This document shows, one piece after another, positions 1 to 3,791 of a DNA stretch of 64,000 bases. The notes beneath the pieces were generated by a model. It worked only from the letters and a program-made list of their open reading frames with translations. It had not been told where the DNA came from and did no database searches. This stretch comes from Clostridia bacterium (GTDB taxonomy: Bacteria > Bacillota > Clostridia > Christensenellales > CAG-138): contig JAFZRT010000015.1 in NCBI GenBank assembly GCA_017619735.1, positions 1 through 64,000 on the forward strand, written 5' to 3'. Position 1 is the first letter of the stretch; every line of letters starts with the position of its first letter. A program made the position numbers and the translations under genes.

Positions 1-444
1 ATGGCTTCCAATCTTGCGTCGATTGTGCGACTGTTTCCGACATGGAATCTCAGGGAAGCCGACGGGTTATGGTGTGCGGCGTTTGTCTATTATTGCTGCA
101 CGACAGCGGGATTCGAAATCCCGTTCAGACCTGAGGAGTGTAAAACCTGTCATCTGGCTGGATGCCTTGGCTGGGAAGAGTTTGCTTTAGGCGATCGGCG
201 GATCGAATACCATAAAGGGCAGGAAGGCTATGTTCCGGAAGCGGGAGACATCGTGCTCTATGACAGGGTGTTCGAAAACAAAGAGCACGACCATATGGGG
301 ATCGTCCTTGATAAACGGGAGGGTACGATCCTTGTTGCAGAAGGAAATGTGAACAATATATCCGGAATTATCGAGCGCCCTATTGATGAGCATATCCGTG
401 CGTATATTCGAATTCCGGATGGGTATCGGTATAGAGAAGAGTGA
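1..444 (+). CDS. CHAP-domain amidase-like protein, probably 5' truncated by the window edge
   Basis: CHAP-fold proteins are papain-like amidases or peptidases that often cut peptidoglycan. A nucleophile-like Cys25 sits in GLWCAAFVYY, and His98 in DHMGIVLD is followed by EGN at about 114-116, the usual Cys-His-polar order. No signal peptide is visible, but the first codon coincides with base 1, so the N-terminus may lie outside the window. The extra cysteines (CKTCHLAGC, residues 47-55) may bind metal. Its TGA stop lies inside the first rlmD-tail repeat, suggesting it was carried in as cargo. The CHAP assignment is fairly safe; the substrate is unknown. Confidence 0.7.
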   Translation: MASNLASIVRLFPTWNLREADGLWCAAFVYYCCTTAGFEIPFRPEECKTCHLAGCLGWEEFALGDRRIEYHKGQEGYVPEAGDIVLYDRVFENKEHDHMGIVLDKREGTILVAEGNVNNISGIIERPIDEHIRAYIRIPDGYRYREE

Positions 445-595
445 CAAATTTCATTTTATAGATATGTTTCTCCGGGACGGTCATTTCGAGACGGTATGCT
501 TATTGTCCAAACTTCATGAAGCAAAGAATCATATCAACATAAAGGTAGATATGGACGAGCTTGATCTTACAAGTGCGGAAGCTAAGGCAACATAA
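441..595 (+). pseudogene. rlmD/rumA 3'-end fragment, copy R1
   Basis: Read from base 443, the frame gives DKFHFIDMFLRDGHFETVCL, then LSKL and a tail ending DMDELDLTSAEAKAT before TAA. DMF, about 6 residues, H(V/F)ETV and a following LS is the C-terminal signature of 23S rRNA uracil-C5-methyltransferase RlmD/RumA. A DLDELDxTSAESKAT-type tail is one I associate with mobile elements inserted in that gene. There is no start codon with an SD and no catalytic domain, so this is a remnant. It begins GTGACAAATT, as does copy R3 at 2743. Confidence 0.6.
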
Positions 596-641: not shown

Positions 642-1526
642 ATGAGAGCTAATATAGATTTTAAGAATTATACTGACAGTGATTATGAGGCCTTGTGCTC
701 TTTTCTGATTGCATTAAATGAGAACGATGACAGGCATATTAACTGGAACTGGGCAAGGCTGGAATGGATGATTGAACATCCTGAATTTGATAAGAGCTTA
801 AAGAATTCCATTGGCCTTTGGACTGTGGATGGCAAAATCGTTGGCGCTGCTATCTACGATATGTATTTTGGCGAAGGCTTTTGTGGAGTACTTCCGGAGT
901 ATAAAGATTTATATAAGGCCGTTCTGGAATATGCCTGCAAAGAGCTTAGGGATGATTCCGGCTTCGGACTGGCAATCTGTGATGAGAATACAGATGAAAT
1001 AGAGATGACAAAGAGTCTTGGATTTACACCTTCGGACCTGGATGAGACCATCATGGAAAGGAGTCTTTCTGATTCGCTTGAAGCAAAACTCCCGGATGGC
1101 CTTAAGCTCTTTTATCCGGATCCTGTGAAGGATGCTTATGACCTTCAATGGCTTTTCTGGCAGGGATTTGATCATGGTGATGATAAAGCTGAATTTGAGC
1201 GTGAAGAGGAGATTGTCCCAAGGGTCAGGAAGCATTTTAATAAGGACTTAGGTGTTGCAGCAGTAAATGAAAAGGGAGAAATGGTGGCCTGTTGTCTGCT
1301 CTGGTATATGGCAGGGACTGATTATGTTTATGTTGAGCCTGTCTGTACTATACCGGCATACAGAGGGAAGGGCATTGCAAAAGCTTTGATATTTGAGGCG
1401 TTTCGCAGAGCCAAAAAGCTTGGAGCAACCAGGGCCTACGTGATTTCCAATATGGAATTCTATGAGAGGCTTGGCTTCAGGAAGAAACATCATTATTCAT
1501 TTTATTTTTGGAAGGATGGCGAGTAA
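642..1526 (+). CDS. GNAT family N-acetyltransferase, about 294 aa
   Basis: Transfers an acetyl group from acetyl-CoA to an unknown amine. The C-terminal half holds the clear GNAT core: VEPVCTIPAYRGKGIAKAL (acetyl-CoA pyrophosphate loop R-G-K-G-I-A) and FYERLGFRK near the end. The N-terminal 130 residues look like a second, degenerate GNAT fold (WTVDGKIVGAAIYD). I chose ATG 642 because AAGGAAG at 626-632 is well spaced from it; a TTG at 636 is too close. Base use is distinctly AT-rich compared with the rest of the window, fitting recent acquisition. It lies between rlmD-tail copies R1 and R2. Confidence 0.8.
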   Translation: MRANIDFKNYTDSDYEALCSFLIALNENDDRHINWNWARLEWMIEHPEFDKSLKNSIGLWTVDGKIVGAAIYDMYFGEGFCGVLPEYKDLYKAVLEYACKELRDDSGFGLAICDENTDEIEMTKSLGFTPSDLDETIMERSLSDSLEAKLPDGLKLFYPDPVKDAYDLQWLFWQGFDHGDDKAEFEREEEIVPRVRKHFNKDLGVAAVNEKGEMVACCLLWYMAGTDYVYVEPVCTIPAYRGKGIAKALIFEAFRRAKKLGATRAYVISNMEFYERLGFRKKHHYSFYFWKDGE

Positions 1527-1534
1527 GAAGATAC

Positions 1535-1687
1535 ATGATAAAAATAGAGACAAAAAGGCTACTCCTGTATCCGATATCAGATGAGGAAATGCAGAAAGTT
1601 ATAGATGACGAGAAAGATCCGGATATGAAAAAGGCATATTCCGAGATGCTTCAAGGCTGCCTTGATAACCCGGAAGACAGAGTATGG
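1535..1687 (+). pseudogene. Truncated GNAT acetyltransferase (first 51 residues only)
   Basis: ATG 1535 opens MIKIETKRLLLYPISDEEMQ, the typical first strand and helix of a GNAT protein, and continues to EDRVW. Intact relatives normally carry on with a W-x-I strand and the acetyl-CoA site. Here the frame runs straight into repeat R2 at base 1688 and terminates out of family at about 1807. The acetyl-CoA binding loop is missing, so the protein cannot be active as GNAT. The junction coincides with the first base of the R2/R3 identity block, which points to recombination at the repeat. Confidence 0.75.
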
Positions 1688-1812
1688 TTGCCGATATGTT
1701 CCTTCTTGAGCATTATGTGGATACGGTATGCTGCTTGTACCGCCAAAAGAAGGACTTCATTTCAGTGCCGTACGAGCCGCAGGATACGGACTATCTGCAA
1801 CAGCTGAAATAA
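1688..1812 (+). pseudogene. rlmD/rumA 3'-end-like fragment, copy R2
   Basis: Frame from 1690 reads ADMFLLEHYVDTVCCLYRQK, then KDFISVPYEPQDTDYLQQLK and TAA. It shares the DMF...H-x-(E/D)-T-V-C layout of copy R1. Bases 1688-1761 match 2758-2831 at 72 of 74 positions (differences at 1746 and 1752). It has no start codon of its own. The tail after 1761 differs completely from R3, so only the core is conserved. Confidence 0.6.
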
Positions 1813-1843: not shown

Positions 1844-2728
1844 ATGAACATGAAATATGAGATCAAGCCATTAACCGAGGAAGAGGAAACCTTCATCGAA
1901 GAAAAGATCAATGTATATGGCGATTCAATGGCGCCATCGGAACCTCACACAGAGGAAGAACAGCTTGTTTTCAAAGTGGAGGATGAAGATAAAAATGTCA
2001 TCGGCGGCTGCATCGTGAACATTCATGCATGGGGCAGGGCGGTGCTTGCCGAGCTTTGGGTGGACGGTCAGTATCGCCATCACGGCCTCGGCTCTATGCT
2101 GATTCGCGCGGCTGAAAACGCCGCCAGAGAAAAAAACTGCTATTATTTGTGCCTCGGAACCACAGATTTTCAGGCAAGACCCCTTTACGAAAAACACGGA
2201 TTCCATGTGTTTACCATCAACAAGGACATCCCTATGGGGCATGTTAGCTGGTCCCTATCGAAACGACTGGACAAAGATATACCAGACTACCTACCGACAA
2301 ACAACACCGCTGCAGAACATTATCAGGTCAAGGCCGGCACCAAAGAAGACACCAGGATCATCGACAAGGGGCTCGATGAGTTTTGTGAGGAGGTCGTGCC
2401 TGACAAGCACGAATATATCACGCTCAGCAAAAAGCTCATTGATGCGGACGGAAATCTGATTGCTGCTGTGATTTGCGGGATTGACGAAGACGACACTGCC
2501 TTTGTCGACGGTATCTGGGTAGAGGAACGGTATCGCAGGCAGGGTATCGGTTCTTGGCTTTTCAGTGAAACAGAGCGCGAAGCGAAGGAAAAAGGCGCCT
2601 ACGTAATTCTGTCCTATTGCTGCGACTGGGTATCCGCTTTCTTCTTCCAAAACGGGTTTACACCAAGAGGCAAGCTTGAGAATTATCCCAAAGGGCACAC
2701 GGCCTATGAGTTGGAGAAGCGGATCTGA
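1844..2728 (+). CDS. Tandem double-GNAT acetyltransferase
   Basis: Two GNAT domains lie in one chain. The first (about residues 1-150) has ELWVDGQYRHHGLGSMLI and PLYEKHGFHVF. The second (about 160-294) has GIWVEERYRRQGIGSWLF and AFFFQNGFTPRGK. Each has the R/Q-x-x-G-x-G/A acetyl-CoA loop, so both may bind cofactor. The start is ambiguous: ATG 1844 and ATG 1850 both lie behind GAGGAAG at 1834-1840, and an upstream GTG 1832 overlaps that SD. It is flanked by rlmD-tail copies R2 and R3. The substrate is unknown; duplicated GNATs include antibiotic and polyamine acetylators, but nothing here decides. Confidence 0.82.
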   Translation: MNMKYEIKPLTEEEETFIEEKINVYGDSMAPSEPHTEEEQLVFKVEDEDKNVIGGCIVNIHAWGRAVLAELWVDGQYRHHGLGSMLIRAAENAAREKNCYYLCLGTTDFQARPLYEKHGFHVFTINKDIPMGHVSWSLSKRLDKDIPDYLPTNNTAAEHYQVKAGTKEDTRIIDKGLDEFCEEVVPDKHEYITLSKKLIDADGNLIAAVICGIDEDDTAFVDGIWVEERYRRQGIGSWLFSETEREAKEKGAYVILSYCCDWVSAFFFQNGFTPRGKLENYPKGHTAYELEKRI

Positions 2729-2742
2729 AGGGAACGTCCTGT

Positions 2743-2843
2743 GTGACAAATTCCAGCTTGCCGATATGTTCCTTCTTGAGCATTATGTGGATACGGTATG
2801 CTGCTTGTACCGCCAGAAGAATGACTTCATTACTAGACTCTAA
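2743..2843 (+). pseudogene. rlmD/rumA 3'-end-like fragment, copy R3
   Basis: Frame from 2745 reads DKFQLADMFLLEHYVDTVCC, then LYRQKNDFITRL and TAA. The start GTGACAAATT matches copy R1 at 441. Bases 2758-2831 are almost identical to copy R2. It fills the whole gap between two GNAT genes. It is a non-functional remnant. Confidence 0.6.
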
Positions 2844-2857
2844 TTTGCGGGGGAACT

Positions 2858-3343
2858 ATGGAAACGATCAGGAACGGTATCATGGATGCAGACAGAACTG
2901 CTTTGATCAGAAAAGCAACCGCAGACGATCTATCCCGTATTGCAGAAATACATGTTTTTAACTACCGTCTGTATTTTTATCCTATATTCAAATCGGATGA
3001 ATATTACTTTAATGAACTTGGCGTTCCCTCTCTGATGAATGAGTATGGAGCCGGTCTTGACGACCTGTATGTTTATGATGACGGAGCAGTCAAAGGTTTT
3101 ATCAAGATCGAGGGAACATATATATCAAGGCTGTTCGTGGAGCCTGTTCTTCAAAATGCATCGATCGGTTCTCAACTGTTGGAATATGCAGTAAAGAAAC
3201 ATGATGCGGATCATCTCTGGGCTCTTGAAAAGAATGTAAATGCTATACGTTTTTACGAAAGACATGGGTTTACAGCAACCGGAGAGAAAAAGCGTGAAGA
3301 TGGGACCGAAGAGTATCTTGTAATGTTACGCAGAAGGATATAA
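2858..3343 (+). CDS. GNAT family N-acetyltransferase, 161 aa
   Basis: A single compact GNAT domain: IRKATADDLSRIAEIH at the N-terminus, ISRLFVEPVLQNASIGSQLL as acetyl-CoA strand and loop, and AIRFYERHGFTATGEKKRED as the C-terminal signature. The loop is Q-N-A-S-I-G rather than the common R-G-x-G-x-G/A, which is still seen in active members. ATG 2858 follows GGGGGAAC. It ends 1 nt before the next gene, so the two are probably cotranscribed. Its low GC resembles the genes upstream, not those downstream. Confidence 0.85.
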   Translation: METIRNGIMDADRTALIRKATADDLSRIAEIHVFNYRLYFYPIFKSDEYYFNELGVPSLMNEYGAGLDDLYVYDDGAVKGFIKIEGTYISRLFVEPVLQNASIGSQLLEYAVKKHDADHLWALEKNVNAIRFYERHGFTATGEKKREDGTEEYLVMLRRRI

Positions 3344-3344
3344 A

Positions 3345-3791
3345 ATGACGGAACTGAATAATATAACGGAGGAAAACTTCCTCGAAGCGTTCGGCCTTAA
3401 GCTGGCTCCGGGTCAGGAGACTTTCGTTTCCCATCCGATAAGGAGTCTTGCGCAGGCATACGTTTACCGGGATCAATGCCGGCCATTCGGCATATACGCC
3501 GACGGCAAAATGGTCGGGTACGTCATGGTCATCTATGATCACGATATACCCGAATACGATATTTGGCACATGATGATCGATGCGGAAATGCAGGGCAAAG
3601 GATACGGCAGCGACGCGCTCGACCGCGTTATTGAGTTTATCAGGACAAAGCCGTTCGGCGATTCCGATCGCGTTGCTCTGACCTGCGGCAAAACAAACGC
3701 CGCCGCAAGGAAGCTTTACGAAAGAAAGGGCTTCCGTGCGACGGGCGTCGAAGACGACGACGAAATTGAAATGGCTATGCATCTGTCATAG
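3345..3791 (+). CDS. GNAT acetyltransferase, diamine/spermidine type
   Basis: 148 residues. Strand IWHMMIDAEMQGKGYGSDAL carries the acetyl-CoA loop Q-G-K-G-Y-G, and AARKLYERKGFRATG is the closing signature. The overall pattern (FGIYADGKMVGYVMV, YDIWHMMID) resembles the BltD/PaiA-like diamine acetyltransferases of Bacillota, so a polyamine substrate is a reasonable guess. The preceding stop is 1 nt away, with no obvious strong SD, suggesting translational coupling. GC content rises sharply from this gene on. Confidence 0.82.
   Translation: MTELNNITEENFLEAFGLKLAPGQETFVSHPIRSLAQAYVYRDQCRPFGIYADGKMVGYVMVIYDHDIPEYDIWHMMIDAEMQGKGYGSDALDRVIEFIRTKPFGDSDRVALTCGKTNAAARKLYERKGFRATGVEDDDEIEMAMHLS

Follow-up and report, generated by a model that had tools for sequence, protein, structure and literature searches.

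A truncated GNAT gene in a Clostridia genome and a probable worn array of small cassettes at the 3′ end of rumA

Introduction

Why does a GNAT gene stop at the very edge of a repeat, and what is that repeat? The question is raised by a stretch of 64,000 nucleotides from a Clostridia bacterium (genome G000), analysed as a whole and called the window below. The first-pass annotation saw a GNAT reading frame cut exactly at the start of a repeat block and suggested recombination between repeat copies, with loss of the rest of the gene. The features concerned lie at the start of the contig, all on the forward strand.

1..444, + strand: CHAP-domain cassette gene at the contig start (Pfam CHAP, 8e-08)
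441..595, + strand: R1, in which the start of a cassette 3′ element (GTGACAAATTTC) is joined to a rumA tail of the long type (HFETVCLLSKL...TSAEAKAT, then stop)
642..1526, + strand: double-GNAT gene (Pfam)
1535..1687, + strand: GNAT stub, first 51 codons, the rest missing (homologue comparison)
1688..1812, + strand: R2, rumA 3′ tail (...ADMFLLEHYVDTVCCLYRQKKDFISVPYEPQDTDYLQQLK, then stop), left end lost (repeat and matches to rumA ends)
1844..2728, + strand: double-GNAT cassette gene (Pfam; array relatives at L131, 61% aa, and in G056, 46% aa)
2729..2831, + strand: R3, start of a cassette 3′ element plus rumA tail, shortened (comparison with L124)
2858..3343, + strand: GNAT gene, probable cassette (Pfam and array position; no relative among the loci compared)
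3345..3791, + strand: GNAT gene common to other rumA-tail arrays (78% and 77% aa identity to array genes of G045 and G025)

A GNAT gene cut inside a repeat

The stub holds 51 GNAT-like residues, from the ATG at 1535 to 1687, the last of them being ...NPEDRVW. Its frame matches no Pfam family in a Pfam scan, and the label “GNAT” rests on homologues at loci L248, L249 and L252. The full-length GNAT gene at L248 (G253, from another family of the class) is identical to the stub at 140 of 153 nt up to 1687, including 17/17 of the last 17 nt before 1688. The blastn match reaches only 1689, beyond which the gene of G253 continues as a full GNAT. At all three loci the frame runs about 100 to 120 residues past the end point of the stub, so GNAT homologues do not naturally end there, and the homologues also exclude that the repeat is the GNAT gene's own 3′ end. 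A search of the window's genome (92% complete) for the missing part gave no copy, the two matches being 34% and 30% identical. GNAT likeness thus stops at 1687 and the identity of R2 and R3 starts at 1688, as first described, and the loss of the rest of the gene at this sharp edge is borne out.

A class-wide search with the stub gave matches in 6 of 341 genomes, that of the window included; among 101 close relatives, the window's own genome alone gave a match. At L249, in a different family, the full-length relative of the stub has AAGGCATATGGAGG, near the cassette core, just after its stop.

The first double-GNAT gene has a counterpart at L251 (G361), which is 84.5% identical over 916 nt to window positions 642-1557, reaching 23 nt into the stub gene before the two diverge. 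We considered that the stub and this double-GNAT gene arrived together, and dropped the idea because the double-GNAT gene of G361 carries only those first 23 nt. The GNAT gene behind it also breaks off, just 23 nt after its start.

As for the cause of the loss, recombination between repeats found no support. R2 (1688-1761) and R3 (2758-2831) are 97% identical over 74 nt (72/74 as counted), and R2 exceeds this shared block, its rumA tail reading on to the stop codon at 1810-1812. On the left, R3 has 15 nt more than R2 (GTGACAAATTCCAGC, 2743-2757), which means that the left end of R2 is gone: R2 is cut 15 nt inside the unit as seen in R3, and joined to mid-gene sequence. Had two direct repeats recombined, one would expect an intact repeat with the natural left flank of one copy, which is not what the window shows. 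At the join of stub and R2 at most 2 nt (TT) are shared. We infer that an illegitimate deletion, ending inside a junction, fits the stub better than repeat exchange.

The repeats and rumA

Judged by their matches, R1 to R3 are 3′ ends of rumA (rlmD), which encodes a 23S rRNA m5U methyltransferase. Over 135 nt, R1 has 85% identity with the 3′ end of rumA in G003, and its tail is of the type found in the rumA of the window's own genome; the rumA end of G059 matches R2 at 80% over 113 nt. When 101 genomes were searched with the tail, 9 gave matches, the own genome included. Three of the matches fall within open frames some 500-630 aa long, two of which read as probable RumA/RlmD-type methylases.

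The rumA of G000, with a long tail, lies at the end of contig C35, which stops about 80 nt after the gene, and in several relatives rumA is near a contig end too. These last bases (L023, 2369-2450) contain the start of a new ORF (MDKKTILD...), which the contig end interrupts; by eye, it is like the serine-hydrolase genes in the L109 and L186 arrays.

Two comparisons bear on the state of the window. The CHAP protein is 90% identical (aa) to the product of an L146 gene, in an Erysipelotrichaceae MAG, which stands directly after a palindrome junction. Positions 2638-2764, at the end of the second double-GNAT gene, share 95% identity with L124, in which a complete palindrome element and a junction come next; the counterpart in the window is a shortened element passing straight into rumA sequence. 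These comparisons make R1 to R3 worn junctions, with the end of the stub inside one of them. The absence of the palindrome from the window's own junctions counts against the explanation favoured below, that of a cassette array grown at rumA. The repeats of the first-pass annotation are real and sharply edged; their role, as rumA 3′ ends that mark cassette junctions, lay beyond its reach.

Arrays behind rumA

In relatives and in other Bacillota, mostly from herbivore guts, an array of small cassettes stands behind rumA. Each cassette, as sought here, has a rumA 3′ tail at its start and a conserved palindromic element at its end. The rumA ends and the inner copies align at His-Val-Glu, and to the left of the inner copies lies unrelated sequence. 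There, the end element reads ...TATTCACGCTATTGTCCCAAGG, followed across the boundary by CATGTGGA, or, in another class, ...TATTTGACCTGCTGCTCCRAGG up to the boundary.

A 17-base core pattern was found in 12 of 103 family genomes (2 with the reversed control), and it missed the window's own genome, where the junctions are worn. A longer junction pattern gave 92 stretches in genome_contigs. Among the 80 of these that were listed are uncultured Clostridia, Clostridiales, Oscillospiraceae, Ruminococcaceae, Lachnospiraceae, Clostridiaceae and Erysipelotrichaceae kin, and the animals named in the listed titles are mostly ruminants. The sample consists mostly of MAGs, with one genome per species. Where rumA lies in the same stretch, the site is always downstream of it on the same strand (36/36), 441-6020 nt away; the other loci of the 80 have no rumA within the stretch.

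A profile gathered 115 unique sites, in which the end element is conserved. Intervals of 200-2500 nt have a median length of 853 nt, with the longest ORF taking 0.72 of the length. This ORF runs in the direction of rumA in 64 of 65 intervals (64 distinct), a count that leaves out other lengths and 11 loci whose contigs were already represented by other loci, and after which a duplicate region (L246) was removed. The alignments establish an array of fixed place and direction, with boundaries set to within a few bases.

A viral origin was rejected, the junction pattern having no exact match in viral_contigs, and so was a plasmid or phage origin, the consensus junction having no matches in phage and plasmid records.

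In terms of cargo, the 64 main ORFs include 13 acetyltransferases and 3 methyltransferases by Pfam, with one protein of the chloramphenicol-acetyltransferase family and one of the beta-lactamase family. The Pfam CAT match among these proteins was read from the sequence as L142:345-1013. No recombinase is present among the 25 Pfam families listed for the 64 main ORFs (48 matched in all), and the scan of these ORFs did not reveal cassettes that carry an integrase and transfer genes. With the defence-island idea in mind, PADLOC was run on the 64 proteins and gave 23 models, each in one protein except one in three.

Cassettes shared between genomes

Near-identical cassettes are common to several genera, as the alignments show, and lie behind different left neighbours: rumA, another cassette, or the 3′ end of a serine integrase gene. 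On the left, the flanking sequence switches at the Glu-Thr codons of HVET, to within a few bases, with the edge just before GARAC. For the cassette of L135, L117 and L178, identity is no more than 13/20 before the core and 20/20 at it. The ends of the L135 and L117 copies agree as well, up to the next core; the L178 copy differs from L135 in its 3′ part (1271 vs 696 nt), where the last 20 nt or so alone agree.

Another cassette has a start that is 208-217/220 identical in G013, G059, G025, G045 and G012, which represent three genera, and the 60 nt to its left agree at 8-26/60 in 9 of 10 pairs. Its left neighbours are rumA (two), an integrase end (one) and other sequence (two). Lastly, the L209/L059 cassette is 97.6% identical over 1104 nt, starting at GAGTGC, with an integrase 3′ end to the left of L209 and a palindrome to the left of L059. 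Exchange with fixed ends is seen for the whole cassette in L135/L117 and L209/L059, and at the left end in the others. The tail is not always common among the 11 cassette pairs compared (L162/L160 0.42, L123/L138 0.70), a comparison that leaves out 18 of the 64 cassettes, in which the motif did not locate both cores.

The end of rumA itself varies independently of the gene. Across 10 genomes of the genus, the rumA body (300 nt before the core, compared with gaps) is 65-75% identical in every pair, and the tails (+16 to +60, compared without gaps) are 18 to 89% identical, with no correlation between the two (-0.14). In G004 and G010 the tails are 89% alike and the rumA bodies 69%.

Cassettes could also spread by homologous recombination between rumA tails once DNA has been taken up, given that tails and end elements share tens of nt and that copies as alike as R2 and R3 exist. 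A switch between unrelated flanks within a few bases, at one point and in many species, is however unexpected for such a process, which we judge very improbable.

Serial insertion and decay of ordinary ICEs and IMEs at rumA, by tandem accretion and formation of CIMEs, would make the single genes leftovers. By published reports, rumA is an established site (PMC4701971, PMC4320837, PMC11578063) and CIME accretion is described (PMC5704250); long ICE-like tails do occur in our data. Random decay, however, would not repeat such patterns as an end element kept in 115 unique sites. Moreover, cassettes of 0.7 and 1.1 kb recur whole, with both ends, at 96% and 97.6% identity behind different neighbours, and the third cassette begins alike in five genomes. 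We consider decay unlikely as the source of the arrays.

A candidate recombinase

Array stretches L114, L132, L158 and L209 hold a large serine recombinase that ends in a rumA tail, and G025 has a C-terminal integrase end that shares 95% identity over 101 aa with the one at L209 but carries a different tail. Pfam Resolvase, Recombinase and Zn_ribbon are present in 3/3 integrases scanned next to arrays. A class-wide integrase search found 19 loci in 18 of 391 genomes, and 15 of the 19 have rumA-like C-termini by eye, L270 weakly so. Of the remaining loci, two have a broken or cut gene, one reads beyond a stop into a long tail, and in the fourth another ORF had been picked. More distant serine recombinases among the loci examined show no rumA-like end by eye.

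In the aligned loci, serine integrase genes pass at their 3′ ends into rumA tails, at the point where the cassettes do. These shared edges make a rumA-specific large serine recombinase the best candidate for the enzyme that moves the cassettes. It counts against this explanation that such an integrase came from only 4 of the 92 junction stretches (L129, L132, L158, L209). A second point against it is that no such integrase was found in the assembly of the window's own genome, with one PF07508 match of 49 bits.

A tyrosine integrase was rejected as the enzyme. PF00589 gave 38 matches in 7 genomes, including, as read here, one XerD-like protein per genome. The 30 loci examined, of which five had matches in a core scan allowing up to 2 mismatches, contain by eye one true junction, L093 (G008:C7), with a GNAT gene between junction and integrase. 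A profile of 15 tyrosine recombinases found one further such enzyme in a junction stretch (L186), away from the junction.

Three further observations concern serine recombinases. At L245 (G017:C45), a serine recombinase frame (399-1421, minus) lies within about 250 nt after rumA on the same strand. At L265 (G511), rumA (plus) adjoins a minus-strand serine recombinase match, which looks convergent, unlike the other loci. Finally, TTTGGACAAT in several integrase 3′ ends approximates the reverse complement of ATTGTCCCAAG in cassette ends (GGACAAT/ATTGTCC), which could be a shared recombinase motif.

A palindrome at the cassette end

From the 115 unique sites, 2 were excluded by E-value and 12 of 113 were removed by hand for other loop lengths or a degenerate element, leaving 101 aligned. 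In these, 80.5% of cells are paired, versus 34-49% when slid. The covariation score is 0.282 versus 0.200 in shuffles, and 0/500 shuffles reach it, a signal inflated by relatedness since two sequence classes (80 and 21 sites) drive it. Two of the five palindrome measures are not above the shuffles: pairs with two-sided change (7 vs 8.1) and further pair types (22 vs 23.5) show no excess. In 4 of 16 pairs, about half or more of the sequences are open.

An inverted repeat would also be kept if it were bound as a double strand, not just as an attC-type fold. An intrinsic terminator was rejected by eye, since the run of T falls within the loop and the 3′ arm and does not follow the stem.

The palindrome elements of the cassettes are unlike the 3′ ends of integrase genes found in that position, and for this reason another enzyme may read the palindrome. 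A dedicated enzyme other than the serine integrase would then move the cassettes, in the way that integron integrases read attC. Its appeal lies in a palindrome kept in two sequence classes, with the pairing given above and covariation above 500/500 shuffles. Against this, no such gene was recognised near the sites (38 tyrosine-recombinase matches, 7 genomes, 30 loci), and the cassette edge matches the serine integrase's own edge, so that we hold a dedicated enzyme to be improbable.

Discussion

The explanation that we regard as probable for the whole locus is that a cassette array has grown at the 3′ end of rumA, and that the array in the window is old and decayed. A cassette would be made up of a short rumA 3′ coding tail, usually one main gene in the direction of rumA, and the palindrome element at the far end. 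Insertion at the HVET codons would swap the RumA tail for that of the cassette, and since the incoming tail replaces the old one, the enzyme would stay whole. The older tail and its cassette would be pushed downstream, with the new tail restoring the site. A serine recombinase presumably inserts the cassettes in trans, the moving form may be a circle, and the youngest cassette is expected nearest to rumA. In the window, junctions R1 to R3 would have been shortened, and an illegitimate deletion would have taken the end of the GNAT gene and the left end of R2.

More tentatively, the arrays may represent an integron based on a serine integrase, with the last codons of rumA as platform, cassettes that repair the gene and remake the site, palindromic ends, and a pool in herbivore-gut Bacillota that extends from Clostridia to Erysipelotrichaceae. 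The cassettes appear to serve distant gut bacteria as a means of exchanging single genes.

If a serine integrase does move small cassettes at rumA, gut Bacillota own a separate integron-like route. This could explain the assembly breaks often seen downstream of rumA in these MAGs, and the rows of acetyltransferases and other small genes behind it. With defined cassette junctions and a named integrase family, a direct recombination test becomes possible.

Integrons, with their core GTTRRRY, are the textbook route by which bacteria collect single genes. The arrays described here resemble them in their small one-direction cassettes, palindromic end site, fixed platform and varied cargo. They differ in that the core, GARAC, lies within rumA codons and the platform is the 3′ end of a housekeeping gene. 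The candidate integrase is of the serine family, and no IntI was found at the platform (PF00589, 7 genomes).

SCC elements of staphylococci use serine recombinases at the 3′ end of rlmH, an rRNA methylase gene, and form composite tandem islands. Serine recombinases, the 3′ end of an rRNA methylase gene and tandem islands are common to both systems, whereas in SCC the methylase and the recombinases are different, and the elements are far larger than the cassettes here.

Insertion at rumA, the serine integrases involved and tandem accretion are already known; among open-licence papers we found no description of such cassettes. The streptococcal rumA ICEs have a single serine integrase with the attachment site in the 3′ end of its gene, and these integrases exchange 3′ ends with rumA (PMC4701971), while CTn5 of C. 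difficile fuses rumA to another tail upon insertion (PMC4320837). The ICEs and IMEs of Streptococcus and CTn5 share the target gene with our arrays, and the integrases with rumA-like C-termini found here have the same layout. Those elements carry many genes and their own integrase; here we see mostly one main gene, no integrase, rows of cassettes and a palindromic end.

CIMEs, as presented in PMC5704250, are decayed ICEs or IMEs without integrase, lying between attachment sites and stacked at one gene end. The cassettes are like them, on that description, in keeping attachment sites and having no recombination gene in their main ORFs, and unlike them in being small and, in some cases, common as whole units to distant genomes.
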